A stretch of DNA of 64,000 bases from Collybia mongolica (taxonomy: Eukaryota; Basidiomycota; Agaricomycetes; Agaricales; Clitocybaceae). The number at the start of each line of letters is the position of its first letter. Within the stretch, counting starts at the first letter, position 1. This document shows, one piece after another, positions 14,588-58,428 of the stretch. Location of the stretch: contig JAAXNY010000004.1 of assembly GCA_013420905.1 (NCBI GenBank), positions 2,976,001 through 3,040,000 on the forward strand, given 5' to 3'. The position numbers were made by a program, and so were the translations under genes. Below the pieces are notes generated by a model that was not told the origin of the DNA, searched no databases, and saw nothing but the letters and a program-made list of their open reading frames with translations.

Positions 14588-14591
14588 GACC

Positions 14592-14698
14592 CGTTGTTCA
14601 ACAAGGGTGTCCATTGATAAATGAGCTTGAAAGGTGTTCCACTGAGCTTGGACCATCTTGAAGTTCTTGATGTCTTGATAGTTGGGGAGGCTAGTCAT
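14592..14698 (-). pseudogene. Antisense gene B, exon 1 only (truncated by LINE)
   Basis: The reading MTSLPNYQDIKNFKMVQAQW starts at 14698 and corresponds to exon 1 of antisense gene B in the full-length element (46587-46480, 36 codons ending LVEQR). The LINE junction falls right at the exon end, so all downstream exons are gone. An ATG context and upstream A/C-rich sequence are shared by both copies. Confidence 0.7.
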
Positions 14699-15385
14699 AA
14701 TAATGCAGAGGAAATTGGTTTTTTGAAACAGAACATTGTAAAGAGAGTATAATAGAGTCTGGCAATGTCTTTGGAAAAATAGCGCGGCCAATGCCCTTTT
14801 TATACCTCTACAACTAGGAAGGTGCTACCCAGCCTCTCATTTGTTGCGCGCATTCTGCCCCAGAAAAATCTGTACATTTCAATTGAACAGGTCCGAGACA
14901 CATGCCTAATTGAAATGCTGAGCCCAATTGAAAAAGGAGCTCTGTAAAAATTCATGTGGAGCGCGGCAGTGTCTGTATGACAACTGGGACAGTTGTATTC
15001 AGTGTTGAGGGGGAAATGGGTATAAGCAAAATTAATTTGGAAAAACCTACCGAGGTTACAAAGATTGAAATAGATTGTCTATAAAAAGTCAGTGATTGCG
15101 CCATGGTCTTAATGATTGAGAGAATTGCACCAGAATTAAACTGTACTATTTATAACTTAAGTAGCCGGTGCAAGGGTGGAAGCTTTCTTATGGAAACAAT
15201 AGAACAATAGTAAAACCAATTGTATTGTTTATAGTCCGGGGGACTGTATGTAAAGATATGTGTTAGACTTCAATAAAAATTGAAGCCCCACAAAAGGCGG
15301 GGGCATAAGTAAGACGTCAATAAGGGCACTAGGGCCTGGGAAAACACAGGTAGATAAAAACATAGATGGGGGGGGCGTGGCGCAG

Positions 15386-17351
15386 CTACTCCTCCTCGCT
15401 ATCAGGCGTGGATGAAGAGGAGGTTGATGATGAAGAACTGTCATCAACCTCTGATTTGTCCTCCAAGGGCAGCCAAGGGAGGTTCTGAAACTCTGCGTAG
15501 AAGAGGAGAGCGCTCTCCATGGCTGGCATAGTCAGCAAGAGGTTTTGAAGGCCCTCCAGGCCTTCCTCCTCGTATAACCTACCAATGGTGCCAACTATGC
15601 GCACCAACAAGGAGTCATGCATTTCAAGCACACAGTTAGTGGCCTGAATGACCTCCGCGGCAAGAGTGTCCGTGTCATCCAGCTGAGCATATGCTTCAGC
15701 AACCGCTAGTAGAATAAGTAAAATCATTAGTAAACAAAAAGACAGAAAGAGAATGGCTTACTGGAAATGCCCGCACCAAGCATAGGCCCCAGATCCTCCC
15801 GGAGCCTAGCGCACTTCTGGGGAGTGAGACTGAAGCTACACTTCCCCTTCTTGGCAATAGTGCATTCAACGCACAGTTTACCCCAACCGTTGAAGGAGCA
15901 CTCAATGTCACCGCGGGTGGCGTACATCATGCAAGGATAGCCAACGTAGTAAGAAGGATCAGTAACAAGAAATAAAGTAGTGATAAACATATGGTAGAGT
16001 GCCGAGGCACAAGGTCAGCCAGCAGGGATGTAATAGGAGACTGTAGTGGCGTAGGCTCCTGGTTGGGAACCAGCACATGCTTACGGCGTGTTGCCTGAAC
16101 CCTATCCCTAGAACAAGTGGTCTTATGCGACCGATGAGGAGAAAGGGCCGCGGGAGGCAACAACTCCGCAAATCGCTCTTGAGCCAGCTGGCGCGTGATC
16201 TCTTGCTCAAAGAGCTGAAGCTCAGGGACCTCAACCTTAACCGGCGGCTGCCTGGAGGACTAAAAAGATAAAAATAAGTACAAGTAAATGGGTTTTAAAA
16301 TAGAAAGGAGACATACGGGACCTACCTCCATGGGACACAGCGTGGAATCACTGCCAGCCCCCTGGGCGCATGACATGTCAGACTAGAATTTTGAAATCAA
16401 GTCAGGAATAATGTAAAGCTCGTGAAGTAAAGGATGGTATACCTGGGGAACCGCACGGCCTTTGCCCTTGGACCCTGTATTACGCTTCTGCTTAAGGGGC
16501 TATCGAAACAAGTCAACAACAGAAGAAAAGTAATAAAAGTAGTGATCGATGAACTGTGGGTAACAAAACTGGGGAGCGCGCTGGCAAGGGCACGGCGGAC
16601 CAACTGTCCCGGTACTGATGGTAATGGCGCAGTGCACCAACCATGCAAGGGGGGATGAGGAAAGTATCTTGAAAGATACTTTCACTGTTGTCACGCTCGT
16701 AGCATGACCCCACCTGGTCCAGAACTTGCTCCACAGTGGGAGCCTGACCCTAAAGTAAAAAGTAGTCAGTTTGACAAGGACAGGCAGAGTAAAGAAGTAA
16801 ACAAGCCATTTACCAGAAGAATGGAATTGTTTCCTAGGTCAGCCGATATGACCATACGCCAGGAAGACCATGAGGCTTTGCGCGCATCAACTGGGATGCG
16901 CATCACTTGGAGGTGAAGCGCGCACAGGAGGAGAATGGCTGGGTACGGCAGCAAAAAGTGCGCACCACGGACCACGCCAGTGATGGCGTCCTGAGACCAG
17001 TAAATAAGTAATTTAGCAAAAGGTTAACAGTTAACAAGTAAAAGATGGGTGTACAATGAGCAAGGAGCAGTGATTGACAAAGTCAATTAAATTGTTGAGG
17101 TCAAGGGGGCCCTGATGGTCCATATGGGGCGCGAGCTCCTTGGCCATAATTATCCACCCTTGCTCCATGGCAACAAAGACATCGCCCTTGGCATCTTCAA
17201 GGAGATCGGAAAACAAAGGGATGGACTGGTCCACATAGACCATAGCGGGGGAACAGCCCTCAGCCAGTAAAATTGTGGTGGAAAGCGAAAGGGACAGTGC
17301 GGAAGGTGAGTACAGAGCACGAGCCATGGCAGAAGTGGAAGTGGAAGACAT
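15386..17351 (-). CDS. Antisense gene A: multi-exon Cys-motif protein inside the gypsy element
   Basis: Reads from ATG 17351 (MSSTSTSAMARALYSPSAL) through exons 17351-17055, 16990-16814, 16749-16570, 16499-16443, 16382-16326, 16259 to about 16000, about 15955-15755, and 15705-15386. Most introns are 50-70 bp GT-AG and phase 0. A late exon has a cysteine pattern C-x10-C-x8-C-x2-C-x7-C (GYPC, IECSFNGWGKLCVEC, KGKCSF), perhaps a metal- or nucleic-acid-binding motif. The tail is acidic and Ser-rich (PDSEEE). I recognise no named family. One acceptor before the Cys exon reads ACG here but AG in the other copy (TTCTTACTAG), so splicing may be damaged. It lies on the strand opposite gag-pol. Confidence 0.65.
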
Positions 17352-17802
17352 ATTTGTTTAAAGGAGTTGGAGCGTTTGAGCAATGCAAATAGCAAAGAAA
17401 TTTAGAAATGGGCTGTAAAGTCCAAATTGTCTAAAACTTAGCAAAAGCAAGAGCTTTTTAAAATGCACAACCGTGCATTGTGAAGCTCTAAAAGACAAGC
17501 AGGAGCACCGATCTCTTGCTGAAGTGTCAGAAACATAACGAGAGAAATGCTCAGATGACTGAAATATCTGTAAAGCGATGTCCGAATGTCAAGTACTCTC
17601 TCAGGAGACGTATATAACTGTCACAATCCTGATGGAAAGTAGACCTCTGGGCTCAATCCTGACATCACGTGCCTACCTGTCTAAAAGCAGGAACCATTGT
17701 GACCTTGTACTGAATGATTAGACGCATGCAGACCCGAAGTATTGGACCAACATGCCGGCGAAGAGAGACTGAGGACAGTCTACATTTGTGGTGTGGGGGA
17801 GA

Positions 17803-30690: not shown

Positions 30691-31639
30691 AGTTGTGAGT
30701 ACAGTCAATAACACGTTTAATGTGGTCAACAATCTCTGATAGATATTGAGAGGCTTTCAATCAAATGGCTGAAGACATTGCCAGACTCTAGTTGAGGAAG
30801 TTGATGACTTGATAATGATGCAGACAAAGACCAAAGTGATTGAAAAGACAGGCCACCAGGTGGGTGGTAGAATCAACATGTTATATGGTCAAGTATGCCA
30901 CTTCACTATTTTCATCCAGTATTTAGTCAACCACCTTATTAATTATTAATTATATACTATTTTCCCCTTTTTTGCAACTTTGTTTAATTTCCTCCTACTC
31001 AATATATACAACCTCTGATTCCAATTTACCACTATTACTTGTAGGATTCATATAGCTTGTCTTCCAATGTAGATACGTAATAATTTCCATACATACAAAC
31101 CTGCACTTGTATACCCATATTTGCATTATTGCTATAATTATGTTGATATCCCCTCACTGCAGGTAAAGCACCATGTATACATGATTTTGTTGAAATGCAA
31201 CCCAGAACTGTCTATATGTGGATATAAATAACCTAAGGTGACATCTAATATTGTGTAGTCATTGTTCTACCACATTGGTTAATTGTTTTGTATGACTCTC
31301 ATATTGGAAAGGTAGTTGTTATTATCCTACTTTAAGCAATGCCTTACCCATTATTCTTTTTATCAATCAATTTTATCTATAATATAGTTACTCACATGTA
31401 TTACTATTTCCCTTGATCATTTGCACTGGATTCCAGTTGCTTTAAGTATAAGCTTAGAAAGAGGTAGGGATGATCCATTGATAGATTTTGAATTTTCAAT
31501 GGGGGTAGATTGGTGTTGCTCCATCAATTCTGTTCTATGCTGTGATGTGGTATGTATACCTTAGCATTGCCAGGAATTATGTCCAGTACTTTGAAAGAGT
31601 TTATATTATTATATTTGGTGGAAAGATAGTTTTATATAA
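30691..31639. other. AT-rich spacer without gene
   Basis: No long frame, no domain and no repeat I could pair with confidence; probably old transposon sequence. Confidence 0.4.
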
Positions 31640-35716: not shown

Positions 35717-36945
35717 TGATAGGGCCCAAAATTGTTTGCACTTATAAAGTCAACAAGTAAGGCTATGAGTATCATTTCTAATAACCAAGTAAACGGTAAT
35801 AAAGGATTAGAGTTGAGCTCTGAGACAGCTAATCAGAGTGAACTAGTCTAATGGATAATACACTATTAGTACAGAGGACTATGAGTACAGCCTATTATTA
35901 GTCCTATTCACCATGCCCAGTTACAACCTTGGTATCTTAATTCATAAGTAACTGTTGTAGTATGATATCATTAGTCTGGGGATCATCATTAATAGGAGAA
36001 GTAATTGCAAATTCGGGACTTGCACAACCCAATCCTAGTCAGGGGCACTTGGTCTTAACTACCAGAAGAAACAGGACACCGTAAATAACAACTGGGATGA
36101 TCAGGAGAAGTAAAAGACAGTGCCGTGCTGTTTTAAATAACCAAGTGCGCAGTCAGGACTTGATAAGAGTTTAGCCAGCTCTTTCAATATTGGATAAGTA
36201 ACAAGTAACAACATAATTGGCACGCATGGTGTGCGTGCCAAGTTGTAGAGGACAAGTCAGCATTAAATACAGATCCTTGGTGCGGGGGAGCACTGTTCCA
36301 TATAAAATTTACAATTCCTTATGATATTTAGTTTGTACACTATAAATAGACGTAGATAAGTAGCGCAAAGATAAGGAATCTTGCCCCCACTTCGCGCTAC
36401 TATAGGGTATACAAATCATATTTGTTGAAACACTATTGCATGCATGAATTAAGGATTGGATTGCTTCAAGTTGTCTTGATTGGAATTGTTTTGAAGCATT
36501 TGATTGAAGAGATCACAGAATTGAAGAGTCCAGTTCATTTGGAACTTAGTACCCACATTGTCCATTGGAATTACTAGGCACTTGGCCTTTAGTGCACTTG
36601 GCACTGTTTGTTTGATAAGTCACTTGGACTTATAGATCCGCTTGGGATCATTAATAATTGAACATACACTTGGTACTCAGTCTATTGGATCGAAAGATAT
36701 TATAGATATACCTAGCAAGCCTTAAACTTGTGTTAAGGCTTTGTCCAAATCAAACCCGCCAAGAGATCATTGGAAAGGGCCTTGATTAGTACTATTCAAA
36801 GCTTAGTGCTTCCAAGCACTTGAACCCAAACTCAAAACAGGCAATTCCTACCATTGGTGTGTTGATTATCAGATTTGGTGTGTGCATGTGTAAGAGATTA
36901 CATTACATAGCATCAGCACACTTATAGCCCAGGAGCCCCCTTTCA
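35717..36945 (+). repeat. 5' LTR of full-length element (LTR c)
   Basis: TGATAGGGCCC to CCCCCTTTCA, 1229 bp. It contains TATAAATA (36341-36348), the hairpin 36359-36401, and a run of CACTTGG words between about 36585 and 36680. It drives the sense genomic RNA. Confidence 0.95.
36341..36348 (+). promoter_or_regulatory. LTR TATA box
   Basis: TATAAATA, conserved in LTRs a, b and c; the 3' LTR (d) reads CTCTAAATA at the same place and is probably weakened. Transcription would start about 25-30 bp downstream, within or just after the conserved hairpin start. Confidence 0.6.
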
Positions 36946-36947
36946 TC

Positions 36948-36972
36948 TGGAGCCCACTGCGAGGGTTCAGAG
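36948..36972 (+). promoter_or_regulatory. tRNA primer binding site
   Basis: TGGAGCCCACTGCGAGGG begins two bases after the LTR. Read in complement, it gives CCA, a discriminator, a 7-nt acceptor strand (AGTGGGC), a 5-nt T-stem strand (CTCGC) and a T-loop-like stretch, so the match extends beyond the usual 18 nt. Confidence 0.75.
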
Positions 36973-37102
36973 TTTTGAATAGTCTAAAAAGAGCATCTTT
37001 CATTGAAAAATTTATACCAAGATGAGTAACATCATCTACAAATTGAAGTAGAGTGGAGAAAGTTTAGTCAATCTGTCTCAAGAGCCATGTGCACAAGCCA
37101 GC

Positions 37103-38446
37103 TTGTCAAACAGACTAACTAATCAGCCACTTACAAGACAAGTAGCTACCAAGACACGCAAGACAAAAAATTCGCAAAACACTGGAGTAACAGAGCTGTT
37201 ACCACCTCCTAGACATGCGCGCACACAAGGATCTTCACAACCAGCCTTTGGATCTTCAGGACCAAGGCAAGTATTTAGAACTCCAGAGCCTTTAGGAAAC
37301 ATATTGATTACTAGTAGACCAGTAGCATGCAGAAGATTGTCTGTAGTAAACCCAGTAGTAAACCTGAACTTGTTAGCTACTCAGAACCATTCAGTAATCA
37401 TGATTGAACCCCCTTGTAAATATATGCCCCAACCAGGCATCCATGATGCACCAGTATTCAAAGGAAAGGAGCCCACAGGCTTAATCCAGTTTCTGGAGTG
37501 CATGGAAGTCCTATGGAAGGAGTGTAACAGTACAAATGATGAAGAAAAGAAGTTAATGTTAGGAAAGTATGCAGACCTACAATTGGAGAATGAGTGGAGA
37601 GCATTAGACCACTATAAAACAGGCACTTGGATGGATTTCAAAACGGAGTTGATCTCTAGTTATCCGGAAGCACTCGATCAAGTAGAGGGATCAGTAGCCA
37701 AGTTAGAAGCAGTGTGTTGCACCAGCCCACGTATTGGAGTAACTGATGAGGCCACACTGAAAAAGCTAAAACATGAATTCAAAGCAGAATCTATTAAGCT
37801 CTTGGGAGTCAGGCCACCTATTATCTCTAACCAAGAATTAGTTACCAAGTTCTTGGGATGTCTAGACAAAGTCTTCAGATCCCAAGTACAAGGAAGGCTA
37901 ACTCTGCTAGGGAATAATCAGTCTAATGCCACACAGACAGGACAGGCCGTTGCTACAAACAACCCAGCAAATCCTAATACTATTGCCAAAGCCACTGTGC
38001 TTGCACAATGAAAAGGAGATCAGTATGACTTGGAGGAAGTAATAGCAACTGCAATCAGCATTTCTGAAGGCGTAGCCAACATGAATATTCCAGACACAAA
38101 TAGATCTTTTATAACATCTGTAACAGCAGCAGCAGTGCCCAAGATCAAAGTAGAGATGGACGAAATAAAACAACAAATAGTTAATTTGTTAGACCATCTC
38201 CAAGTAAATGAGAAGAATAAAAGGAGTGGATTCAAGGATGTAATGAAAGTGCTTCAACAAGCAACTGTTCAGAACCATGCCATGAATAGCATGCCCAGCA
38301 GCATCAGGATCAGAATCAGTACAGAAAGCCTAAAGAAGGACAACCATAAAGACCAAATGCATATAAATGTCACTACTGTTTTACACCCGGACACTTCATC
38401 ATGGCCTGTCCCAAGAAACAGAAACATTTTGAAGAAGGGAAAATAA
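37103..38446 (+). pseudogene. Gag capsid-like block (full-length copy)
   Basis: Reads 37103-38011, meets a TGA (38009-38011), and continues in the same frame to 38446. At the stop the left copy has CGA, so the lesion is a C-to-T change at a CpG. Capsid-like helices (MLGKYADLQLENEWRALDHY) and a coiled, Gln-containing segment (MDEIKQQIVNLLDHLQVNEK) are present. The C-terminal 30 residues overlap the knuckle block in another frame. No start closer to the PBS is usable because ATG 37022 meets TAG after nine codons in both copies. Confidence 0.8.
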
Positions 38447-38913
38447 AGACCAACGCAAATGGAGGAGTATGCTTACCAGACAGATTGTATATTCCCAGAG
38501 AACCAGAAATGGTATCATTAAAAGATAAAGTGGAACACTTCCATTCAAAGAAGGTAGCGGCCCTTTATTACGGAGATGTCACAGAAGGACCCGCTCCAGG
38601 AGTATTGTCAGTTATGCATCAGTCACATAATGCAGTAGACAGTAATAACAACATTGGAACCTTGAAAGCCATAATGGCACAAATGGCCCAATTTCAAGTG
38701 CAACAAATGTTAGGACAACAGAGCGCACAAACTGCGTTGCCAGTACCACCTCAGATGCAGAAACAAGATTATATAAACAATAACTATAATACTACTGCAA
38801 AGAGCACACCTAATCCTGACATAGTAGCCTTACAAGCACAAATGAGTACTTTATTAGGGCAGGTGGCAGAGCTCAATAACCAAAACAAGGTTATAGAGTT
38901 GGGTTTCAATTAG
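38354..38913 (+). CDS. Gag zinc-knuckle block (full-length copy)
   Basis: After the TAA just before it, reading gives RPNAYKCHYCFTPGHFIMAC, a canonical CCHC knuckle, then KKQKHFEEGK and a Gln-rich tail (QMAQFQVQQMLGQQ), ending at TAG 38911-38913. The frame is -1 relative to the capsid block. Upstream in this frame a Gln-rich stretch (HAQQHQDQNQYRKPKEGQP) looks like genuine Gag sequence, so the frame change lies near 38290. Confidence 0.75.
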
Positions 38914-38918
38914 GTCCA

Positions 38919-40129
38919 ATGAAGGAGGCTAAGGAACATGCTAGACCTACAACTAGGTTGTGTTCCAAGAGACAGCCTGAGGACCTGAGTAAAAATAGAA
39001 ATAGTCGTCAAGAAAGTATAAGTAACAATCCAGAAAGTAGTCAGAGTAGTAGCAAGGAGGAGCCAGTAGCACCACCTCCTAGGAAAAAGAAAGTGAAAAT
39101 CATTGAACCATCAGCAAAGTCATCCATATAAAAAGAATTGCCCTACATTGATGTGCCCGCGGTACCCTACATACCCCAGAGAATGGAAAGCAACCCTGAA
39201 CCAGTTGATCCGCTACCTATTTTAATACCAAGCGTGGTCCGACTTATGAAATTAAGTCCCCAATAGAAGTAAAAATAAAAAGTGGCAATATAATTGTCAA
39301 AGTGTTAGACAACCCTATCACATTGACTACAGGAGAGTTAATGGGCTTGTCAAAAACCATTAGAGACAGAATAAAGAGTATTGTAACTGCCAGACGTAAA
39401 TCCCTCACCCAAAGGGATGCTAACTTGCAAATAAATGAAACAGATGAGGAAGATGCCTTACCCTTTGGGAGGGACTGGGAACTTGATGATAACTACCTAC
39501 GGCATGATGCACTACCAGTAGAGTCAATCTCATTCCAGTCTTTCTTCATCTTGGAGTATGACTGTGGCGGAATACCTAAGGGATCTATAATATGTGGAGA
39601 CCCAGTCCTACAATATTCAGAGTCTTTACCAGCTAGGGAAGAACCCAAGCAGTTGTATGTAGCAAAAGAGTTGGCATCTTTGCGCACAGTATATCCAGTA
39701 ATAAATGGGGTAGGAACGGAGGAATCTTTATTAGATGGGGGATCCCAAATAGTATCAATGGCTAAGCAAACGGCTTTAGACTTGGACATTTCATGGGATC
39801 CAGATGTTGTTATACACATGCAGAGTGCTAATAAACAAGTAGAGAAAACAGCGGGACTAGCATGCAATGTCCCTTTCTTGTTTAATGACATGGCCATTTA
39901 CCTCCAAGTACATATCATAAATTCACCCACATACAAAGTATTACTAGGGAGACCATTTGATATGCTCACAGAAAGTCAGATCAAAAATGCTAGAGATGGG
40001 GGACAAGTAGTCACTATCACAGACCCTAACAGGGGATGAAGGTGTACTATCCCTACCCATGCAAAAGGATCACCACCTAAGCTTTTGACAAGGCAACCGG
40101 AACAGGATTTTTGGCCTTCGATGAATTAA
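38919..40129 (+). pseudogene. Protease block (full-length copy)
   Basis: Homologous to 739-1950. It is damaged by TAA at 39129 (CAA in the left copy), a 1-base deletion near 39208 and TGA at 40037 (CGA in the left copy). The retropepsin-like LLDGGSQIVSM and LLGRPFD motifs remain in the 39302-40039 open stretch. The frame is -1 relative to the knuckle block. Confidence 0.8.
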
Positions 40130-40193
40130 TCCAAAGTGATCAAGGAGAGCTAGCCATAGAAATTGCTGAAGATGAGAACAGAAACTTTATTAC

Positions 40194-41108
40194 TTGGGTG
40201 GAGTGGGCCAACACACTGTGTGGCAGGTACTCATTCTTTATTTCTTTTTTCTATTTTTTTATAGGAGAAATAAGTCCATTCCACATTCAGGAAGTTGTAA
40301 CTGACTAAAAACAATGTAGGTGATAGTTTATAGAGGTCATGTGACCATGTGAAAATGTTACCAAGTAAACAAGCAATGCCTGTGCACAAAACCCAATGCC
40401 ATAGCTTGCCTGGTTATGGAGAAAACACAAAAACCATCAGAACTAACTTTTTTCCAGGATTATGGACACTAAATGAGCATTCAGATTGTTGTCATGTATT
40501 TGATATGCTTATGTGATGGAATAGATCATGTGACATATGTCAATAAATAGAGAATTCAATCCTCTTTGTATTTCAGGTAAATATAGTAGTAGTTGTTGAT
40601 TTTTCCAATGTTTAGGATAATTTCCCACAAGGGTCATGTTTAGTAAGGGTCATTGTTGTTATAAGATGTTTGTTCACCCCTGACATAACACACAGACCTT
40701 CAAAACTAGCTGAATCTGGACATTTCTAATATTTCGCTTAAAATAGACTGTGGGAAAAATGTGCTCAACAAGGAAATTGTAGAGCCATGTTTGTACATTC
40801 CAAACATATAAAAACAAAGTTAATGGCTTTACTGGTTATGGAGAAAAACACAAAATAAATTTTGAAACACAATACTTTGAAATATTAGATATGCATAATT
40901 TTGATGGCATCATCAAAAGCATTATGTAAGCATCCCAAATACATGCAAATTATGTCACAATACTTTGTATTTGTGGAGAAATGCTGTAAAAAGCCATAAG
41001 AGAAGAAAAATCCCATTATGGAAATATTTTCCCGCAGTGTTGAAATATGAATCAATGAATGAATGAATCACCTTTCTGCCCGAAAACTGGGTTGATAAAG
41101 AACTTGTA
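40194..41108. mobile_element. ~0.9-kb insertion inside pol, absent from left copy
   Basis: The left copy reads continuously across AACTTTATTATAACGGG; here the same sequence is split between AACTTTATTA (40192) and AATGGGTTATAG (41110). The insert is AT-rich with no transposase. It contains partly repeated phrases (GGTTATGGAGAAAA at about 40415 and 40836) and ends in short inverted TATTAC/GTAATA. It destroys the coding link between protease and RT. Class unknown; possibly a MITE with a TA target. Confidence 0.75.
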
Positions 41109-41112
41109 ATAA

Positions 41113-42543
41113 ATGGGTTATAGACACCCTACTGATAAGCAGAATTTTGGTCACAAAGAACTTAGAGATGTCTTTTTGTCTAGAAGTGATGTAAACATGA
41201 ATAGTACAGTACCTGAACACAAATTACTAGCCATGTACTTGGCTTCAGTAGATAAGCACAATGGACCAGTAATAAACTACAAGCAGAACAGAAGGGACCA
41301 GACAAGTACACCCACTAGACCTATGACATATGCTCAAGAACAGCCCATGCTCAATAAAGCTTTAAGTAAATTAAAGCAGTGGCAAATTAGCACTAACAAG
41401 CACGGTCTTGGAACAGTAACAGGTAATAAGTGTAATATTGAGTCCATGGATCAGCTAGTAGGAAAGAAGTATAAACCAGTACACTTGAAAATAAAACCAA
41501 CACTGGTGGATCTGCCGGATAAATTTAGAATTATCAGAGATATAAAGGGTGACCCTTTAGTGGCTCTACCAGTTCTAACACCTAACCCACCTCCATTTAA
41601 ACCAACTGGAAGGTATACTGAGGAAAGGCATGCAGACTTCCAAAGAGTACATGAAGAAGAGAACTTCTTAAAACCTAAAGAGATGGATATAATCCATGAC
41701 TTTATGTGTAAACATAACAATGGTTTTGCGTGGCATGATAGTGAGCGTGGTAGCTTTAAGAAGGAATATTTTTCTCCTGTTGAAATACCAGTAGTCCCAC
41801 ATACACCGTGGACAGAAAGGAATATTAGAATCCCACCAGGAATTTATGAAGATGTTTGTAAAATCATTAAAACTAAAATTGATGCAGGGGTCTACAAAAG
41901 GTCCAATTCATCATATAGGTCTAGATGGTTTACCATATTAAAGAAAGGTCCAGGAAAGAAACTTAGAATTGTACATAGTCTAGAGCCGCTAAATGCAGTT
42001 ACAATAGCACACTTGGGTTTACCACCTGCTACCGAAGAACTAGCGGAGCATTTTGCAGGGTGCGCTTGTGGCAGAATGATGGATCTGTATGTAGGATATA
42101 ATGAAAGGCCTTTAGCAGAAACATCACACGATCTAACAACATTCCAAACACTGTTTGGTGCACTAAGACTAGTAACACTCCTTATGGAATGGACGAATTC
42201 TGTTCCAATATTTCATGATGATGTTACATACATTCTACAAGATGAGGTACCACATGTCATGATACCCTACATTGATGATGTACCCATGCGTGGTCCAGCA
42301 ATGGACTATGAACTACCAGATGGAACAGAAGAAGAGCTACCTGGTGCTCCAGGTGTTAGACACTTCTTCTGGGAACATATGCAAAATGTAAATTGTGTCA
42401 TACAAAGAATGAAGTATTCTGGGGGAACCTTTTCAGGATATAAGTCTACATTATGTGCAAGTGAAATCCTAGTAGTAGGACATAGATGTACCTATGAAGG
42501 ACAAAAACCTACTACTGATAGGATTGGTGTAGTTGAAAGATGA
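41113..42543 (+). pseudogene. Reverse transcriptase (full-length copy)
   Basis: The 476-codon block has the gypsy RT series: KLRIVHSLEPLNAVT, DLYVGYNERPLAE (catalytic Asp), FQTLFGALRLVTLLMEWTNS, then HDDVTYILQ and IPYIDDVP (the Y-I-D-D catalytic pair), and GGTFSGYKSTL. It copies element RNA into cDNA. The block stops at TGA 42541-42543, where the related reading continues into GPCKDVSEVRAYMGTIG, so a Trp or Arg codon was lost. The upstream link to protease is broken by the insertion. The active site itself is intact. Confidence 0.88.
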
Positions 42544-43150
42544 GGACCATGCAAAGATGTCAGTGAGGTACGTGCTTACATGGGAACTATTGGTGTATGC
42601 AGGAATTTCATTAAAGACTTTGCCCATATAGGCCAACCTATTCAAAAGTTAACTAGAAGTAGTGAACCTTGGATATGGGGGCCAGAGCAAGGTGAAGCGC
42701 AACAGCTATTATTAGATGCACTTAAAAATAGCCCTGCACTCCATCCAATTAATCACACCTGGAATACACCTGTGGTATTGTCAGTAGATACGTCATGGAA
42801 AGCCATAGGCTACTATATCTATCAGGAAGACCCTGATATACCTGGGAGAAAGCACTATGCTAGATTTGACTTGATAACTCTGAATGAGCGCAAAGCGCGC
42901 TTCTCACAACCCAAATGAGAATTATTTGGATTAATGAGAGTTCTAATGGCATGTTATTATTGGTTTATTGGAGTACAGAATTTGGTAGTAGAAGCAGATG
43001 CAAAGTACATTAAAGGGATGTTATCAAACCCAAGTCTAGGACCTAATGCAACGGTAAATAGATGGATTGATAGGATACTTATGTTCCACTTTACTTTGGT
43101 TCATAAAGCTGGTAAAGGCTTTGGCCCAGACGGTCTGTCAAGACAAGATG
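42544..43150 (+). pseudogene. RNase H domain (full-length copy)
   Basis: Continues from RT after the TGA at 42541. LSVDTSWKAIGYYIYQ holds the first catalytic Asp, LNERKARFSQPK the Glu region, a second TGA at 42916 interrupts, and VEADAKYIKGML holds the next Asp. It ends in GKGFGPDGLSR, the conserved RH-integrase junction. It would degrade RNA in the RNA-DNA hybrid. At least two nonsense codons separate it from functional translation. Confidence 0.82.
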
Positions 43151-45099
43151 CGCAGCTAGGGGATCCTGTCTACCCAGACCCAGACAATGGTTATGATGAA
43201 CCCTCAGGTCCTTTAAGGTTTATCAACCCAACCGAGGGATTGGATGACCCTTTGGAATTGTCAGACTTTAAGGAAGAGATTGACATGCATGGTGGATATT
43301 TATTCCAACTCGCCAAGGAAATCTCTGATTTTGAAGTTGAAGCAAACAATGCTTGGGCTGGTGAAGCAGCATTTATTGGGGAAATCAAGCAGCACTTAGG
43401 TTTAGGACAGTTCGGTATTCAAAGAGAAGCTTATCTAAAGCAACTTGTAAATACTACTGTCATACCAGATGAAAAGTTTAAATATGACCCTAATGTGAGG
43501 GAAGTATATGATGAGTCTAAACAGACACCTACAGTGCAAGAACAGGATAACAACCTACCTTTAATAAAGGAGTGGTCAAAAAGACCACAAAAGAAACCAA
43601 AAGGAATGACAGACCGTGCCTACATAATATTTGTGAGGCAGGCATCTAATTTCTTTTTGGATCCAGAAGGTCAGATGTATAGGAAAAATGTCAATAGTGC
43701 GCACCAGCTCGTTGTTGGTAAAAACCACTGTACATATATGATGAGGGCTTCTCACAACTCTGTTGGACATAGGGGTTTCTATGCAACAAAATTCCCAATA
43801 GATAAAAGATTTTGGTGGCCAGAAATGGAATGCAATGTATCATGGTATGTGAAGTCATGTCACATCTGTCAGACAAGGCTCTTAACTTTGTTGAGAATCC
43901 CTCCTGTCATAACCCACATGCCTTCTATATTCCAAGTATTACATGCAGACACCATGCATATGAGCCCACCTTCTAATGGTTATAAATATATTGTCCAAGG
44001 ACGGTGCACACTGTCCTCATGGATGGAAGGTGCGCCCCTTAACTCTGAGGATGGCAAAACCTTAGGAAGGTGGTTGTTTGAAGAAGTAATCTGTAGATGG
44101 GGTTCCCTAACGGAAATTGTAACGGATAATGGTCCTGCCTTTGTTGCAGCCAAAGCATGGCTGGAATCCAAGTACGGTATTACAGGAATAAGTATATCAC
44201 CATATAATTCCAAAGGAAATGGGATCGCCAAGTGCACACATTGGGATGTGCATCAAGCAGTCTTCAAGGCTACAGGTGGTGATGTAAAGAAGTGGTACTA
44301 CTTCTTTCACCATGTAATGTGGGCAGACAGGATTACTATACGAAAAGGGACAGGTTGCTCCCCTTATTTTATGATTACAGGCACACATCCAACCTTACCA
44401 TTAGATACCATTGAAGCCACTTGGTTAGTAAAGTTACCAGGGAAAATATTGACTACAGAGGAACTCATTGGGTTTAGAGCGCAGGCTCTAGCTAAGCATG
44501 TCCAGCATGTCACTGATATGAGGAAACATATCAATATAGAAAAACAAAGGAGACTATTACAGTATGAAAAGGATCACTGCGTGACCATCAGAGACTACAA
44601 TTTCAAACCAGGAAGTTTAGTACTAGTTAGAAATACTGAGGTCAAAAGTTTGCTCAATAAAAAGCTGAAACCACAGTACCTTGGACCAATGATAGTTCTG
44701 AGACAAAACCATGGGGGAGCCTATATTGTTTGTGAAATGGATGGATTAGTTTGGCAAAATAAAGTGGGGGCATTTAGGGTTATTCCTTATTTTGCTAGGA
44801 GTGCAATTGAACTGCTGGACAATCTGCAAGATCTAATAGACATCTCTAGTGAAACATTAAATGCCTTGGTGGAATCTAAAGATCCCGCTAATAGACAAGT
44901 TTACAAGGAGCGTGACTATACCTTTGATAGAGTTCAATTAGATCAGTCCAAATCAGAGTCAAGTTCTAGTGAGGAGACTGAGAAGGGGATAGCTCCAGCA
45001 CTACCACAGACTACTAAGTCACACCACAAGTTGCATAGGTATGTAATAAATTTGTGTAGCTTTCCAAATTGGAAACAAAAAGCAGTAAAGACAGTATAA
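43151..45099 (+). pseudogene. Integrase (full-length copy)
   Basis: Open within a 721-codon stretch starting at 42934. The zinc-binding HHCC region reads MRASHNSVGHRGF and CHICQTR. The core has HADTMHMSPP (Asp) and VTDNGPAFVAAKAW (Asp). At the third catalytic site the sequence is SKGNGIAKCTHWDVHQ: a Lys stands where the DDE glutamate (NG-x-x-E-R-x-H) is expected, one G-to-A change away. The C-terminal domain reads GSLVLVRNTEV, KLKPQYLGPM and GGAYIV. Insertion by this copy's own enzyme is therefore doubtful. An acidic tail ends at 45099. Confidence 0.85.
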
Positions 45100-45206
45100 G
45101 CAACAAAGCTAAGCAGTAAGGACAGTATTATGCCAAGTAAAGACAGTAATACAAAGGAGTGTGGAGAGAGACACAATGACAGAGGAGGAGGTTAATTGGA
45201 CTACCC

Positions 45207-46587
45207 TCAAGCAGAAATGAAGTCGTCTTCAACTTCAGGCAAGGGCACGTCAGCTGGAGCTACCTCCTCCTTGTCATCGTCATCCTGGTCATGGACTTCA
45301 GTAGCACTCACAGTGGCAGCCTCATTAGAGCCTCCCTTTGGAGCTGCCTCATTCATTAGACCATTAAGGCGGGTGACTTTGTCCATAGTGGCATCATGAC
45401 ACTTCAATAAGAAGGATACAGTATGACTGATCTCTTCCAACTCAGCGCGGTAGTTTAAGAGCATCCTACCAAGGGCTTGTTTGGTGTGCGACATGGGATT
45501 GCCCTTGTCAGCAATCAAGCACGCCCGGGCTAAGACTAAATTGTGCTCCTTGGAGGGATGGAAGTCAATAAAGATGTGAGTATCTTGTACACAGTCAGTA
45601 TAAAATTAGAATTATCTATTAATAGAAAACATACCTTCAGCAGATGCCTTAGGATCTTCATCTGGGGTGTCCTGTCTTGTACACTTTTTGGGATGAAGAG
45701 TGCTACTGCAATTGAGCTTGGAGCACTTACTGTCCTGTAAGAATAAGAAATGAAGTAATAGACAGAGTAAAAACAAGAACAGGTACCTTGATGGCAGCCT
45801 TTTCAGCTTTAGTCCTTTTGACATGGGGAACCTTAATGTTTTCCTTCTCTTTTTGACTATGGGTGATTGGTCCTTCACTAAGGAGACAACTAGTCACTGG
45901 TCCAGAGACAGCAACACTGGCCATAGCACCAGAATCAATGACCATATTCTTGAGTAAAGAAGAGATGCCATTGAGTATGTTGCACACTGACAGTGCAGTA
46001 GCTAAAAAGAAACATACTGAGTCAGTACCAGACATTTCAATATCACCGTCATATTCACCACCAGCAATAACCTTGCCTGGAATAGTGGTACCATCTGTGT
46101 CGCCACCAGTGACAGGGACCTAGTACCAAATACCATAGTTTAAGAACAGTAAAGTAAACAATAAGGTAAAAAGCACACACCGTGGTTTGAGAGAGGTGCT
46201 CAGTGCGGACCTTTTCATGGTGACGGTGAATAGTGGCAGTAAGAGTCACAATGTTACAATAGATGGGCTCTTGAAGTAACTTGGGGTATACGTGTTGTAG
46301 TCCCTGGAATGCCTTATGGACACCGAAGATAACATTTTGCCATGACTGCTCCATCAGAACCATTTTGGATTCAGTCAGGAGTAACTGTAAATTGTAAAAG
46401 TTGGTTATGATAACAGCGTTATAACTTTATTGATTGGTAAAAAGTGTACTGCGGTTTTGCCTAACTTCTGGACACTGACCCTTTGTTCAACAAGGGTGTC
46501 CATTGATAAACGAGCTTGAAAGGTGTTCCACTGAGCTTGGACCATCTTGAAGTTCTTGATGTCTTGATAGTTGTGGAGGCCAGTCAT
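45207..46587 (-). CDS. Antisense gene B inside the gypsy element
   Basis: Five exons: 46587-46480 (MTGLHNYQDIKNFKMVQAQW), 46384-46181 (SWQNVIFGVHKAFQGLQHVY), 46119-45787, 45734-45635 and about 45549-45207, with GT-AG introns of 52-95 bp. The first three exons are whole-codon lengths and join without stops. The last junction does not close in frame by my reading, so this copy may be damaged. The product is about 360 aa with helical N-terminus, Lys-rich middle (HVKRTKAEKAAIK), and an acidic C-terminus (DQDDDDKEEVAPADVP). No known domain is recognised. It lies downstream of gene A in the same antisense direction, 0.7 kb away. Confidence 0.6.
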
Positions 46588-47280
46588 AATGATGCAGAGG
46601 AAATTGGTTTTTTTTTTCGAACCAGAACGTTGTAACAAGAGTATAATAAAGTCTAGCGATGTCTTTAGAAAAATAGTGTGGCCAATCCCTTTTTATACCT
46701 CTATAACTAGGGAAGTGCTACCCAGTCTCTCATTCATTGCACGCATTCTACCCCAGAAAATTTGTACATTTCAATTGAACATGTCCGAGATGCGTGCCTA
46801 ATTGAAATACTGAGCCCAATTTAAAAAAAAAAAAGGAGCTCTGTAAAAATTCATGTGGAGCACAACAGTGTCTGCATGACAACTGGGACAGTTGTATTCA
46901 GTGTTGAGGGGGAGATGGGTATAAGCAAAAACTGATTTGGAAAAGCCTATTTAGCTTACAAGGATCAAAATAGATTGTCTATAAAAATCAGCGATCGTGC
47001 CACAGTCTTAATGATTGAGAGGATTGCACCAGAATTAACCAGCACTATTTATAACTTAAGTAGCCAGTGCAAGGTTGGAAGCTTTCTTACGAAGACAATA
47101 GAACAACAGTTAAACCAATTGTATTGTTTATAGTCCAAGGGACTGTATAGAAATGAGTGTTGGACTTCAATTAATAAAATTGAAGCCCAATGAAAGCTGG
47201 GGGAATAAGTAAGAAGTAAAAAAGGGCACAAGGGCCTGGGACTGCACAATTAGATAAAATAGATGGGGGGTGCGGCATGG

Positions 47281-48933
47281 CTACTCCTCCTTGCTATCAG
47301 GCATGGACGAAGAGGAGGCTGACAATGAAGAGCCATCATCAACCTCTGGTTCATCCTCCAAGGGCAGCCAAGGGAGATTCTGAAACCCTGTGTAGAAGAG
47401 GAGAGCACTCTCTGTGGCTGGCATAGTCAGCAAGAGGTTTTTTGATGTATGGTTTACCCCAACCATTGAAGGAGCACTCAATGTCACTGCGGGTGGTGCA
47501 CATCATGCAAGGATAGCCAACCTAGTAAGAAGGATCAGTAACAAGAATAAAAGTAATAACAGACATATGGTCAAGCGCCGAGGCACAAGGTCAGACAACA
47601 GGGATGTGATAGGAGACCGTAGTGACGTTGGCTCCCAGTTGGGAACCAGTGCATGCTTATGGCATGGCGCCTGAACCCCATCCCTAGAACAAGTAGTCTG
47701 CCATGACCAACAAGGAGAAATGGCCACAGGAGGCAATAACTCTGTGAATCCCTCTTGAGCCAGCTGGCAAGCAATCTCTTGATCGAAGAGCCGAAGCTCA
47801 GGGACCTCGTTGCTTAGCAGGTGCCTAACCGGCAGCTGCTCAGAGGGCTAAAAAGATAAGAATAAGTAAAGATAAAATTGGTTTAAAATAGAAAAGAGAC
47901 ATATGTACAAGACCTGTCTCCATGGGACGCAGCACGGAATCACTGCCAGCCCCTTGGGCACGTGATATGTCAGACTAGAATTTTAAAAATCCAGTCAGGA
48001 ATAATAAAAAGCTCTCATAGTAAAGGCAATATACCTGGGGAACTGCACAGCCTTTGCCCTTGCACCCAGCATTGTGCTTCCTCTTGAGAGGCTATTAAAA
48101 TAAGTCAACAACAAAAGAAAAGTAATAAAAGTAGAAATCAATGAACTACAGGTGTCAAAACCAGGGAGCATGCAGGCAAGGGCATGGCGGACCAGTTGTC
48201 CCGGTACTGATGGTAATGGCGCGGCGCACCAACCATGCGAGGGGGGACGAGGAAAGTATCTTGGAAGATACTATCACTGTTGTTGCACTCGTAGTGCGAC
48301 CCCACCTGGTCCAGGACTTGCTCCACCATGGGAGCCTGACCCTAAAGTAAAAAGTGATCAGTATGACAAGGACAGAGTAAAGAAGTAAACAAGCCATTTA
48401 CTAAAAGAATGGAATTTGTCCCCAGGTCAGCTGATATAACCGTGCACCAGGAAGACCATGAGGCTTTGCACGCTTCAACTGGGAGGCACATCACCTGAAG
48501 GTAAAGCATGCGCAGAAGGAGAATAGCCAGGTATGGCAGCGAAAAACACGCGCAATGGACCACGCCAGTGATTGCGTCCTGGGACCAGTAAATAAGTGAT
48601 TAGTAAAAAGTTTTAGCAAGTAAAAGATGAACGTACAATCAGCAAGGAGCAATGATTGATGAAGTCAATTAAGTCATTGAGGTCAAGGGGCCCCTGATGG
48701 TCCATATGGGGTGCAAGTTCCTTGGCCATAATAATCCATCCTTGTTCCATGGCAACAAAGACGTCGCCCTCAGCATCTTCGAGGAGATCAGAGAATGAAG
48801 GGATGGGCTGGTCCACGTAGACCATAGCGGAGGAACAGCCCTCAGCCAGTGGAATTGCGCTGGAGAGCAAGAGAGATAGCGCGGAAGGTGAGCGCAGAGT
48901 GCAAGCCATGGCAGAAGTGGAAGTGGAAGACAT
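47281..48933 (-). pseudogene. Antisense gene A, copy with internal deletion
   Basis: Starts at ATG 48933 (MSSTSTSAMACTLRSPSAL) and follows the same exon plan as 17351-15386, including the intron acceptors and MVEQVLDQVGSHYECNNSDS. Near 47449 about 320 bp are missing relative to the other copy, replaced by TTGATGTATG. The loss removes most of the Cys-motif exon and the start of the last exon, so the C-terminal region is broken. The SDSKEE-type acidic tail still ends at 47281. Confidence 0.7.
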
Positions 48934-49370
48934 GTTTATTTGAAAGGGGTTAGAGTGGTCAGGTGATGCGAATAGCAAAGAAGTTTAAAAATGGGCTGTA
49001 AAGTCCAAACTGTCTAAAATGTAGCAAAAGCAAGAGCCTTTTAAAATCCACAACCCTGCATTGCAAAGCTCTAAAGGATAAGCAGGAGCACTGATCTCTT
49101 GCTGAAGTGTCAGAAACATAACAAAAGAAATGCTCAGATGACTGAAATATCTGCAAAGCGATGTCTGAATGTCAAGTACTCTCTCAGGAGAAATATATAA
49201 CTGTCACAATCCTGATGGAAAATAGACCTCTAGGCTTGATCCTGACATTGCGCATCTACCTGTCTAAAAGCAGGAACCGCTGTGACCTTGTACTGGATGA
49301 TTAGACACGTGCAGACCCAAAGTATTGGACCAACATGCCAGCAAAGAGGGACTGAGGACAGTCTACGTTT

Positions 49371-49385
49371 GTGGTGTGGGGGAGA
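49371..49385 (+). promoter_or_regulatory. Polypurine tract
   Basis: GTGGTGTGGGGGAGA directly abuts the 3' LTR, as expected for the plus-strand primer; the same tract precedes LTR b at 17788-17802. Confidence 0.75.
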
Positions 49386-50615
49386 TGATAGGGCCCAAAA
49401 TTGTTTGCACTTATAAAGTCAACAAGTAAGGCTATTATTATCATTTCTAATAACCATGTAAATGGTAATAGAGGATTAGAGTCGAGGTCCGAGATGGCTA
49501 ATCAGAGTGAACTAGTCTAATGGGTAATACACTATCAGTACAGAGGACTATGAGTATGGCCTATTATTAGTCCTATTCACCATGCCCAGTTACAACCTCG
49601 GTATCTTAATTCATAAGTAACTGTTGTAGTATGATATCATTAGTCCGGGGATCATCATTAATAGGAGAAGTAATTGTAAATTCGGGACTTGCACAACCCA
49701 AGCCTAGTCAGAGCACTTGGTGTTAACTACTGGAAGAAACGGGACACCATAAATAACAACTGGAATGATCAGGAGAAGTAAAAGACAGTGCCGTGCTGTT
49801 TTAAATAACCAAGCGCCCGGCCAGGCATTGATCAGAGTTTAGCCAGCTCTTTTGATATTGGCTAAGTAACAAGTAATGACATAATTGGCACATATGGCAT
49901 GCACACCAAGTCGTAGAGGATGAGTCAGCATTAAATACAAGATCCTTGGTGTGGGGGAGCGCTGTTCCATATAAAATTTACAATTCCTTATGATATTTAG
50001 TTTGTACACTCTAAATAGACGTAGATAAGTAGCGCAAAGGTAAGGAATCTTGCCCCCACTTCGCACTACTATAGGGTATACAAATCATATTTGTTGAAAC
50101 ACTATTGCATGCATGAATTAAGGATTGGATTGCTTCAAGTTGTCTTGATTGGAATTGTTTTGAAGCATTTGATTGAAGAGATCACAGAATTGAAGAGTCC
50201 AGTTCATTTGGAACTTAGTACCCACATTGTCCATTGGAATTACTAGGCACTTGGCCTTTAGTGCACTTGGCACTGTTTGTTTGATAAGTCACTTGGACTT
50301 ATAGATCCGCTTGGGATCATTAATAATTGAACATACACTTGGTACTCAGTCTATTGGATCAAAAGATATTATAAATATACCTAGCAAGCCTTAAACTTGT
50401 GTTAAGGCTTTGTCCAAATCAAACCTGTTGAGAGATCAGTGGAAAAGGCCTTGACTAGTACTATTAAAAACTTAGTGCTTCCAAGCACTTGAACCTGCAC
50501 TCAAACAGGCAATTCCTACCATTTGTGTGTTGATCATTAGATTTGGTGTGTGTGTGTGTGTAAGAGATTACATTACATAGCATCAGCACACTTATAGCCC
50601 AGGAGCCCCCTTTCA
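49386..50615 (+). repeat. 3' LTR of full-length element (LTR d)
   Basis: 1230 bp, TGATAGGGCCC to CCCCCTTTCA, near-identical in plan to LTR c but with many scattered substitutions (for example CTCTAAATA in place of TATAAATA). The hairpin is at 50028-50070. Confidence 0.95.
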
Positions 50616-51319
50616 CCGCATCACAAAGTATGTACAAAACAGTTTTTGCACATGTGATATGATTCTAACAACTGGGTTTAAAGAAGGGACATAAGAGCAG
50701 GTGAGTGCCCATGCATACACGTTGGAGGGGAGACACACTAGGGGAGACATGTACTGTTGCATTAGCTAGTATACATACATATATGAGACTCCTCTGTAAT
50801 TCACTACTCAAATATATTTCTTTTTGAATTTTCAAACTGCTGGTGGTCAAGAAAATAAAGCCTTGAGTGTGGCAAGCAACAAGAAATGCATGGCGAAATG
50901 CTGGAAAAATGTGTTGCAAAATGTTAGAAAAATGATCATGTTATGAGTAATAACCTGGAAATATCCTCCTCGGGATATTTCCAGTGAAACATTAGAGTAT
51001 TTGGGCTAATATTCGAGCTTCTCTGAAGTTTCACATGTTGCAATATTTTCGGCTTTGTGCTGTGAAGTTGGGGTTTCAAAAGTCACTTGGTTATTTCAGA
51101 CTTGGCATCAATAACAGGGCCAAGCATAGCCCAGCCACCTGGGATAAAGCCCACTCGAGGGACACAAGCTTACTGGTTTTAGGAGCCTGCTACCTTAAGA
51201 GTATAACCGAACATACCCACTTTTTCTTTGATTAATATTCATCCACCTTTAACTAGAACTTCTCGGTTTCATTGTTTTCGCATCCTACATACACATCATC
51301 GATATATATATGTACGAAG
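50616..51319. other. Spacer between gypsy element and prpD, with a hairpin
   Basis: No gene recognised. CTGGAAATATCC (50955-50966) pairs exactly with GGATATTTCCAG (50973-50984) around a 6-base loop. The short minus frame 50665-50919 has no support. Confidence 0.5.
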
Positions 51320-53292
51320 TCAGGCCTTCACAAAGAGGTCGGTGAACCTATCGACTGAAAGCTTCTGGAATGAATGACTATCAGAAACGATGTCCAGGAT
51401 CCTAGAGATGGGTCAATAAATTGAGTTGATTTGTTATAGCTTTTGAGCCTTGATACATACTTCTTTTGGTGGGTTTCGTCAAAGTGGTGAGAGATATGTC
51501 TGGAACATGTATACTTTAGAATCTGGAGAAAGACAAGGGATATTCTTTACCTCTTGAACTTATTGATAAGGAGAGGGGTTCCCTCTGCTCTTCTTCTCTT
51601 GTGTCCAACGGGGTACTCGACCTCGACTTCGTCAAGGACTGTTCCATCATTAAGCTCAACTAGAAGGGCGTTTCCGATGGATCGCTTAGCAGGATCGTGA
51701 TAGTCAACACTAAAGCGCTGGTCTTCTACACAATAGATCTTAGCTCTCAGTGCATCGATGCGAGGGTCAGCAGCTGATTCATCAGTGCTGGGTAGGAGTG
51801 GACCTCAGAGCCTAGGGGTTGAGATTAAAGGAAAAACATACTAGCTTTCCGAGGTGAGTTCACCGAAAATAAGAGGATACGCAACCATGTAGTTGATGGC
51901 ATGGCTAGAAGGGTAGTGTCAATGCTAAACTTCTACTAATTTGTTGACCACTCACTCCCGATCAGCGAAATTGTCGAGGGGACCTTGTTTGTCAATGATC
52001 CTCTTGGCTGCCTCCTGGGTCCGAATCCTCACGCTCTTGATATCGTCTGAATTCTTTCCTAGCTCCTTGAGCTTCGCGTGAATGGTATGGGCAGCTTCGA
52101 CAGCGGTTTGAGCATGGAATTCGGCAGGGTACGAGATTTTGAAGAGCACGTTTTCCATAATGTAAGAGGTGTATGGGATTTGGAATTCGAAAGGTTTGCC
52201 CTGGAGAGGGTTGAAACTTGAGGCAAAGGGCAGGGCTCAGAAAAACTAACCTTGAAAAGGACGTCATAGAAACCCCAAGTCTTTGCGGTGAGAACCGATG
52301 GAAGGCCCTTTTCACCTTTCTTTACTAAAAGAGCAAGGTTGACAGCCCTAGAGTTGGCATCACCGGCAGCCCAGGACTTGCGGGGACCTGTGTTAGGCGC
52401 GTGGCGGTAAGTGCGCAGTGCTTGACCATCTACCCATGCCTGAGAAACGGCGTCCACAGTTTGGTCACGGTTAAGACCAAGTAGCTTGGACACAACTGCA
52501 GTTGAGGCGACTTTGACGAGAACGACGTGATCAAGCCCGACTCTATTGAAAGAGTTGAGAAGGGCCAATGAACCTTGAATCTCGTGGGCCTTAATCATAG
52601 ATTCCAAGATGTCGCGCACGGTAAGGGGCTGGCCTTGGCGTGCAAGATGGTCTGCAACGGCGAGGATAGCGCCGAGGTTGTCAGACGGATGACCCCCTGG
52701 TATGTATGAAGGTTAGTATGGGTTCGGGAGAAGAATATACAGTGGCTGGTCTTACATTCTGCGGCCAAGAAGCAGTCATTGAAGTCAAGCCATCGAATGG
52801 CAGCACCGATATTGAATGCTCCACGGATAGGATCCAGCTGGTAGTTTGTTCCGGGAACACGCGTGCCTGGGGTAAAGCATGAACACCCGGATACAGGAAG
52901 GAGATAGAAAAGGTACCATTGGGAACAATGGTTCCTTCAACGACTGGGCCCAGGAGCTTAGTGCAGTCCGGAAAGCGGAGGGCCTCAAGACCACATCCAA
53001 TGGTATCAATCAAACACAACCTGGCCGTCTCAAAGGCGAGATCGGAGTCGACTTTGTAGTTGTGAATGTAATCTGCAATATCCTGGAGAACCTTATCAGG
53101 TTCTGGGCGCAAAGTAGATTCTCCTGCATGGGAAGACATTGCTCTGCGTGGCAGTGATGGCAGAGACGGTACTGTGGATGGGTAGAGAGAGACGCGTGTG
53201 GCGGGAACTACTAAAGAACGGAGTGCAGTGGACGCAGTTGTGCGAAAGATGGGTGCGGAGGGCAAACCGGCGCGGACTGCTTTTTTGAACAT
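51320..53292 (-). CDS. prpD: 2-methylcitrate dehydratase family (MmgE/PrpD), mitochondrial
   Basis: Starts at ATG 53292 with a basic, Ser/Ala/Arg-rich leader ([20 protein letters not shown]), a likely mitochondrial presequence. Family words follow in order: [74 protein letters not shown]-region [44 protein letters not shown], and [20 protein letters not shown]. The end is rebuilt through two short exons to [11 protein letters not shown] and TGA 51322-51320. About nine exons; no stops. The enzyme dehydrates 2-methylcitrate in propionate catabolism. It is the first host gene right of the transposon island. Confidence 0.9.

Positions 53293-56167: not shown

Positions 56168-58428
<2,261 letters not shown>

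Follow-up and report, generated by a model that had tools for sequence, protein, structure and literature searches.

Antisense genes in LTR retrotransposons

Antisense open reading frames (ORFs) between pol and the 3' long terminal repeat (LTR) are described for the plant retrotransposons Retand, Grande and RIRE2, and the passages of the two papers used here describe predicted DNA binding or an observed nuclear location for their proteins (PMC7264820; PMC11963269). For Retand, one such passage states that 97% of the clusters encode a TRP28 domain (PMC11963269). In fungi, the elements Boty and BcGypsy1 of Botrytis and Sclerotinia carry the antisense gene brtn between pol and the 3' LTR, according to parts of PMC7264820 and PMC8365987, and human T-cell leukaemia virus (HTLV) is described as having an antisense gene, HBZ, with nuclear location and an antisense promoter in the 3' LTR. 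Here, we analyze a 64,000-nucleotide stretch of contig JAAXNY010000004.1 (positions 2,976,001 to 3,040,000 of the forward strand, hereafter the window), which contains a Ty3/gypsy-type element of 14.9 kb (35717-50615). Between its integrase and its 3' LTR sits an antisense module of two intron-containing genes, here called gene A and gene B. Both genes are protein-coding and under purifying selection, and the module is found throughout the element family.

As far as the cited passages describe Retand, Grande and RIRE2, the module is like theirs in where it lies, in being antisense and conserved across the family, in the large size of the internal region and in the nuclear or DNA-binding regulatory role proposed. 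An antisense coding region between pol and the 3' LTR is a trait that it has in common with the aORF-3R class. Unlike these elements of plant hosts, the window family has two genes with 7 and 4 introns. One of the papers urges a search for antisense and spliced transcripts, and the word "intron" does not occur in its main text (PMC7264820); in the other, the word-start "splic" occurs twice, with the passages concerned standing in the reference list (PMC11963269). The Pfam search of the module gave no match to the TRP28 of Retand, the presence of a TRP28 model in the library being unchecked. Boty is likewise a fungal Ty3/gypsy element with an extra antisense gene between pol and the 3' LTR; however, in the parts of the sources used it is an ascomycete element with one named gene, and brtn is likened to the module by description only. 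Database searches with the module proteins returned no Botrytis protein, and the likeness to HBZ is one of logic only.

An earlier note on this DNA had considered the module a candidate for an undescribed system. In such general terms this is not supported, as antisense accessory genes at the same position are already known from plants and Botrytis, and the module is therefore a variant within a known class. Relative to the cited literature, what is new is that one fungal element has two such genes, that these contain many spliceosomal introns, that the host is probably a basidiomycete and that selection is directly evident in this setting. Literature titles and the beginnings of abstracts, in which few subscription journals are covered, gave no hit for a basidiomycete element with two spliced antisense genes. 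A class that was mostly known from plants and, within the cited literature, from one ascomycete element family is thereby extended to a likely basidiomycete. Many copies, the contrast between introns and exons, and an outside relative also make this a clear example of LTR retrotransposon accessory genes that sequence alone shows to be spliced and selected.

Gene models of the antisense module

The anatomy of the element and its module is almost certain. The LTRs are 1.23 kb long, have TG...CA ends and are 94.1% identical (1157 of 1230 aligned bases are the same and 73 differ). Together with a sense-strand polypurine tract directly before the 3' LTR (49374-49385) and a candidate primer site without an identified tRNA, they mark the element as an LTR retrotransposon, and CCGC at 35713-35716 and 50616-50619 is a candidate 4-base target-site duplication. 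In the order protease, reverse transcriptase, RNase H and integrase, the integrase is clear, RNase H and protease are sub-threshold, and the reverse transcriptase is placed by a motif read by eye. The integrase matches prototype foamy virus (PFV) and Ty3 integrase chains, including the Ty3 Gag-Pol chain 7q5b at E 8.7e-6. The positions given in the earlier note for the integrase stop (45099) and the start of the 3' LTR (49386) were both confirmed.

We defined the exon borders in copy L012 and transferred them to the other copies by alignment. We fetched 34 further module loci, of which 24 have a complete module and were modelled along with the window copy, i.e., 25 copies in total; the 10 partial or rearranged loci (L031, L034-L042) were excluded. 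Gene A has 7 introns and 8 exons, the latter adding up to 1563 nt including the stop codon, or 520 codons in open copies. Gene B has 5 exons, 4 introns and 383 codons in nearly all of the 25 copies. Both lie on the opposite strand to pol, which agrees with the two head-to-tail antisense genes of 5-8 exons proposed earlier. The proposal that the introns are mostly phase 0 with GT-AG borders also stands, with 9 of 11 introns in phase 0 and 2 in phase 1. All 274 introns counted end in AG, while 266 start with GT and 8 with AT; of 275 intron positions in total, one is gone with a deletion in the window copy.

The exons and introns differ in how their lengths are kept. Exon length is the same as in L012 in 314 of 323 comparisons (the shortened exons A7 and A8 of the window copy are left out), and of the differences 6 shift the frame and 3 are multiples of three. 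Intron length is the same in 149 of 274, and 95 differences would shift the frame. The predicted frames average 0.0-0.1 stops per exon. In 7 of the 13 exons (A1, A2, A6, A8, B1, B2 and B5), every other frame averages at least 0.7 stops; the other six do not discriminate when taken alone, because at least one other frame is nearly stop-free. Among the 25 copies, 18 have an open gene A and 22 an open gene B.

The introns are kept in 25 copies, as expected under the earlier suggestion that they survive retrotransposition through their antisense orientation if only sense RNA is reverse-transcribed. In such a cycle, only the sense RNA would be packaged and copied, and the introns would persist because new copies come from an RNA in which they are not introns. 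The module would also mark which strand replicates, because an intron-bearing gene persists only if its own spliced mRNA is not the template.

Purifying selection on both genes

The variable columns at codon positions 1, 2 and 3 number 151, 116 and 259 of 521 in gene A, and 79, 53 and 112 of 384 in gene B (24 copies, window copy excluded). Outside CpG sites, the variable fractions are 48/403, 35/414 and 128/378 in gene A and 22/317, 15/340 and 57/325 in gene B. The integrase was examined in five copies; old and young copies differ with a similar codon-position bias (e.g., 60/932 at positions 1-2 and 78/466 at position 3), which is weaker between the window copy and its neighbour (54/932 and 46/466).

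The ratio of nonsynonymous to synonymous substitution rates (dN/dS) was estimated for 12 hand-chosen copy pairs after dropping codons with gaps or stops, and each pair was set against 200 neutral simulations using the base-change rates of that same pair in introns and the intergenic stretch. These pairs are not independent because they have copies in common. In gene A, dN/dS is 0.13-0.38, and 0 of 200 simulations were as low in every one of the 12 pairs. In gene B, it is 0.23-0.43 in 11 of the 12 pairs, with 0-6 of 200 simulations as low. A lack of purifying selection, which the earlier note had named as a finding that would speak against the module, is thus contradicted both by the codon-position bias and by dN/dS relative to the neutral simulations.

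Spread of the module through the family

Markers were counted across the 46-Mb assembly of 26 contigs. Allowing up to 3 mismatches, a 29-base marker in gene B has 102 sites; a 23-base marker that lies upstream of gene A has 114 when up to 2 are allowed. The reversed-pattern control gave 0 for each. For 67 of 80 pairs, the A marker and the B marker are 2.89-2.95 kb apart. Of at least 40 integrase copies in the genome, the best 40 were surveyed using 100 listed sites of each marker, and the module was found whole or in part with 39, one of them via a distant marker. A marker lies downstream on the expected strand in 33 of these 40, and 30 of the 33 have gene B at 1.37-1.44 kb; in one of the 33, on contig C6, the marker is 7.3 kb off and only putatively part of the same element. 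Six of the other seven have a partial module, including one with gene B 450 bp away. Presence in most copies and conservation like that of other element proteins, both seen among the best 40 integrase copies, are further traits of the aORF-3R class.

Therefore, the markers and the integrase survey identify the module as a standing part of the family, in line with the family-wide module of the earlier note. A late insertion in only the two copies of the window does not account for the data, as copies genome-wide keep the module. Between L012 and L017, divergence in the module is patchy, with 1-2% near 10-12% in 150-bp steps, which suggests recombination between element copies. Some copies appeared to have a different pol. 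This was rejected for three of them, L002, L003 and L005, which belong to the same family but are cut or interrupted, and the match of L004 is to a different part of that pol. In L003 (1-1500), most of pol is deleted and the preceding stretch and the module are kept, making it a possible non-autonomous derivative.

In 24 of 24 copies fetched, the LTR begins at the base adjoining the module, and the integrase end reaches the module in 7 of the 8 loci that include that flank. The module as a separate nested transposon was rejected on these grounds. More generally, an artefact, whether from open frames that arose by chance or from the nesting of some other transposon in a small number of copies, has virtually no probability. 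Complex nested fungal elements are reported in a part of Muszewska et al. (PMC3248453), but nothing about this module favours such an origin. The constant abutment argues against it, as do the 102 and 114 marker sites compared with none in the controls, the AG acceptors at all 274 introns and the annotated protein in another species that is described below.

Relatives and composition of the two proteins

Gene B has a single database relative at E<=0.001, the 371-residue hypothetical protein BDZ94DRAFT_1234893 of Collybia nuda (Agaricales, Tricholomatineae). The two are 63% identical end to end (247 of 390 aligned columns). None of the four splice junctions is interrupted by a gap in the alignment, and conservation is good around three of them. 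The end-to-end match therefore provides independent support for the gene B model, and it points to an agaric as the likely host of the window. The relative lacks 9 residues at gene B positions 145-153, where the intron/exon call may differ, and gene B exon 3 may contain a further small intron at that point. For gene A, protein database searches found no relative, although these score only about 8000 candidates sharing most words, and distant relatives may be missed; none was confirmed in viral contigs either. Sequence searches of the PDB with gene A and with the Collybia nuda relative gave nothing usable, and the only Pfam hit of gene B at E<=1 is SPECT1, whose E of 0.25 is not meaningful.

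The GC content at third codon positions (GC3) is 0.68-0.70 in gene A and 0.54-0.55 in gene B (three copies each), and 0.45 in the integrase (two copies). The deviating composition of gene A relative to the integrase would fit host cargo, i.e., host genes caught at the DNA level and carried as passengers or to the benefit of the host. The introns, which argue against acquisition via spliced RNA, and the hypothetical protein annotated in Collybia nuda also agree with cargo. However, constraint between copies is not expected of passengers, and gene A is without any relative found, so we regard a cargo origin as distinctly unlikely. The description of the genes as captured in the earlier note is unproven: no host progenitor was found, in an own-genome search that does not reach past near-identical copies.

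Of the 18 open copies of gene A, 17 show the pattern C-x2-C-x7-C-x8-C-x2-C-x7-C, and the tail of the protein is acidic and Ser-rich. In L012, residues 201-240 form a basic patch in both proteins (+8 in gene A and +10 in gene B), and both have an acidic end. A zinc finger in the Cys-rich gene B of the window copy was considered and rejected, since L012 has arginine in place of most of these cysteines, which fits C-to-T decay at CpG sites.

The shared basic patch could also be read as a sign that both proteins serve the replication cycle itself, in particle assembly, RNA packaging or nuclear import of the pre-integration complex. Selection like that on the integrase and near-universal retention fit an essential part of this kind. 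On the other hand, there is no Pfam capsid or envelope match and no solved-structure match, and antisense transcription, if driven by the genes' own promoters, would uncouple the proteins from gag-pol dosage. A replication function of this sort is unlikely in our judgement.

Candidate promoters and possible regulatory role

The sequence TATAAA is found 106-111 nt before the ATG of gene B in 25 of 25 copies. The stretch of approximately 450 bp that separates gene A from the 3' LTR is conserved to about the same degree as codon positions 1-2 of gene A. From the conserved TATA and the conserved 450 bp we infer separate antisense promoters, such that each gene would be transcribed from its own promoter (the TATA for gene B, the 450-bp stretch for gene A) and not from the 5' LTR. 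The antisense promoter suggested in the earlier note is thereby plausible. Antisense transcription from an own promoter is another trait of the aORF-3R class, and the sign of it in this family is the conserved TATA-like box.

The conservation upstream of gene A can also be explained if it is the antisense RNA that matters, i.e., if it pairs with the genomic RNA and the resulting double-stranded RNA feeds silencing or self-limitation, with the proteins being secondary. A precedent is Ty1, which is limited by antisense transcripts according to a part of PMC12786077. However, the codon-position-specific constraint, the kept exon lengths and the conserved splice sites point to protein, and we consider this explanation very improbable.

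The explanation that we favour is that the module is a standing two-gene antisense module with a regulatory role, and taken as a whole we find this rather probable. Gene A would be a nuclear, nucleic-acid-binding protein, as suggested by its six-cysteine cluster, basic patch and acidic Ser-rich tail, and gene B, acidic overall with a basic patch, would be its partner. The two could act in trans on the element promoters or the silencing state, balancing element expression against host repression. The position, the basic patches, the cysteine cluster and the plant antisense precedent make trans-acting regulation the likeliest role, although for the two proteins a regulatory function falls slightly short of an even chance in our analysis. 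More doubtful still is a self-carried two-protein control, in which spliced genes with their own promoters would supply a DNA-binding complex that recognises the family and tunes or counters silencing, having evolved independently of the plant Retand proteins. DNA transposons and retroviruses evolve trans-acting regulators, and the family offers a natural setting in which to ask if the same is true of retroelements.

Several results weigh against the favoured explanation. The Pfam search with gene A gave no family at E<=1, so its zinc cluster is no more than a pattern; there is no Zn_clus match that would make it a Zn(II)2Cys6 protein, and what it has is six cysteines at similar spacing. The pattern is missing in 1 of the 18 open gene A copies and in the second copy of the window, and compared with the canonical Zn2Cys6 motif there is one extra residue in the first loop. 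Both proteins are acidic overall in L012, with net charges of -13 (gene A) and -10 (gene B). The structure model of the Collybia nuda relative has a mean predicted local distance difference test (pLDDT) score of 40 and no usable fold. No convincing repeated short motif common to the LTR and the gene promoters was found in the one copy searched, L012. Regarding selection and retention, the gene B pair L009/L010 has a dN/dS of 0.64, with 76 of 200 simulations as low and thus no constraint (the frame of L009 is broken), and one of the best 40 integrase copies has lost the module plus the first 276 bp of the LTR.

The module copies and other features of the window

The features of the window element and of the two module copies are listed in Table 1. 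In the window copy, gene A lies in 47281-48933 and gene B in 45207-46587, head to tail on the minus strand. Of the two genes that the earlier note described here, gene B is open across 383 codons, but gene A is not intact, as a deletion of about 0.3 kb has removed the intron separating exons 7 and 8 along with part of each exon. In the second copy (14588-17802), gene A has its full length of 520 codons; however, neither the GT nor the AG of intron 6 is left, the second cysteine of the cluster is lost, and only a piece of gene B remains. This copy is not among the 25 that were modelled.

Both gag and pol are broken in the window copy, and a Pfam search of 37052-38011, part of the gag-like region, gave no match. 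The CpG observed/expected ratio of the window copy is 0.22-0.23 in gag (37103-38011) and integrase (42934-45096); in the integrase of two younger copies it is 0.65 and 0.83. The strong CpG depletion of the window copy is consistent with past methylation and decay.

Table 1. Positions of the element, the antisense genes and the second module copy in the window
Feature	Position	Strand	Basis or remark
5' LTR (TG...CA)	35717..36945	+	LTR pair comparison
Candidate primer-binding site	36948..36966	+	read from sequence; starts TGG, just after LTR; no tRNA partner identified
gag-like region	37052..39131	+	named by position; frame broken in window copy
Protease region	39302..40039	+	weak gag-asp_proteas and DUF4100 matches, both under cut-off
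AT-rich insertion, 919 bp	40193..41111	.	interrupts pol of window copy; absent from neighbouring inverted copy
Reverse transcriptase region	41113..42543	+	YIDD motif by eye; no Pfam match at E<=5
RNase H region	42580..42918	+	RT_RNaseH_2 E 2e-6, just under cut-off
Integrase	42934..45099	+	Integrase_H2C2 E 1.4e-12; rve E 6e-5 (under cut-off); stop at 45099
Gene B exon 5	45207..45583	-	377 nt incl. stop codon
Gene B exon 4	45635..45734	-	100 nt
Gene B exon 3	45787..46119	-	333 nt
Gene B exon 2	46181..46384	-	204 nt
Gene B exon 1	46450..46587	-	138 nt, ATG
TATA-box-like conserved sequence upstream of gene B	46687..46697	-	comparison of 25 copies
Gene A exon 8, truncated	47281..47441	-	161 of 320 nt
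Gene A exon 7, truncated	47442..47521	-	80 of 184 nt; deletion at about 47441-47451; holds first half of cysteine cluster
Gene A exon 6	47569..47847	-	279 nt (267 in other copies)
Gene A exon 5	47905..47974	-	70 nt (66 in other copies)
Gene A exon 4	48035..48091	-	
Gene A exon 3	48147..48341	-	
Gene A exon 2	48402..48578	-	
Gene A exon 1	48637..48933	-	ATG
Candidate antisense promoter (conserved stretch upstream of gene A)	48934..49385	-	also contains sense polypurine tract
3' LTR	49386..50615	+	LTR pair comparison
Module remnant of second copy	14588..17802	-	gene B breaks off within exon 1; 3' LTR of this copy at 17803-19021
Gene A of second copy	15386..17351	-	520 codons, stop-free

A LINE-type non-LTR element at 10447-14053 ends about 535 bases before the start of the second gypsy copy (14588); it matches RVT_1 at E 5e-19, and its endonuclease match is weak and under the cut-off. 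At 5238-5813, the protease of another retroelement (RVP_2 E 1.7e-9) adjoins the inverted LTR of the neighbouring gypsy copy. Additionally, the window has two repetitive open frames, one at 30172-30711 with repeats rich in Asn, Gln, Pro and His, and one of 659 amino acids on the minus strand at 53508-55487, which consists mostly of 6- and 16-residue units repeated in tandem, with an abundance of Asp, Lys, His and Trp, and has no Pfam match above the cut-off. Host genes are represented by MmgE/PrpD-type and ATP sulfurylase exons at 52059-52619 and 56914-57405.

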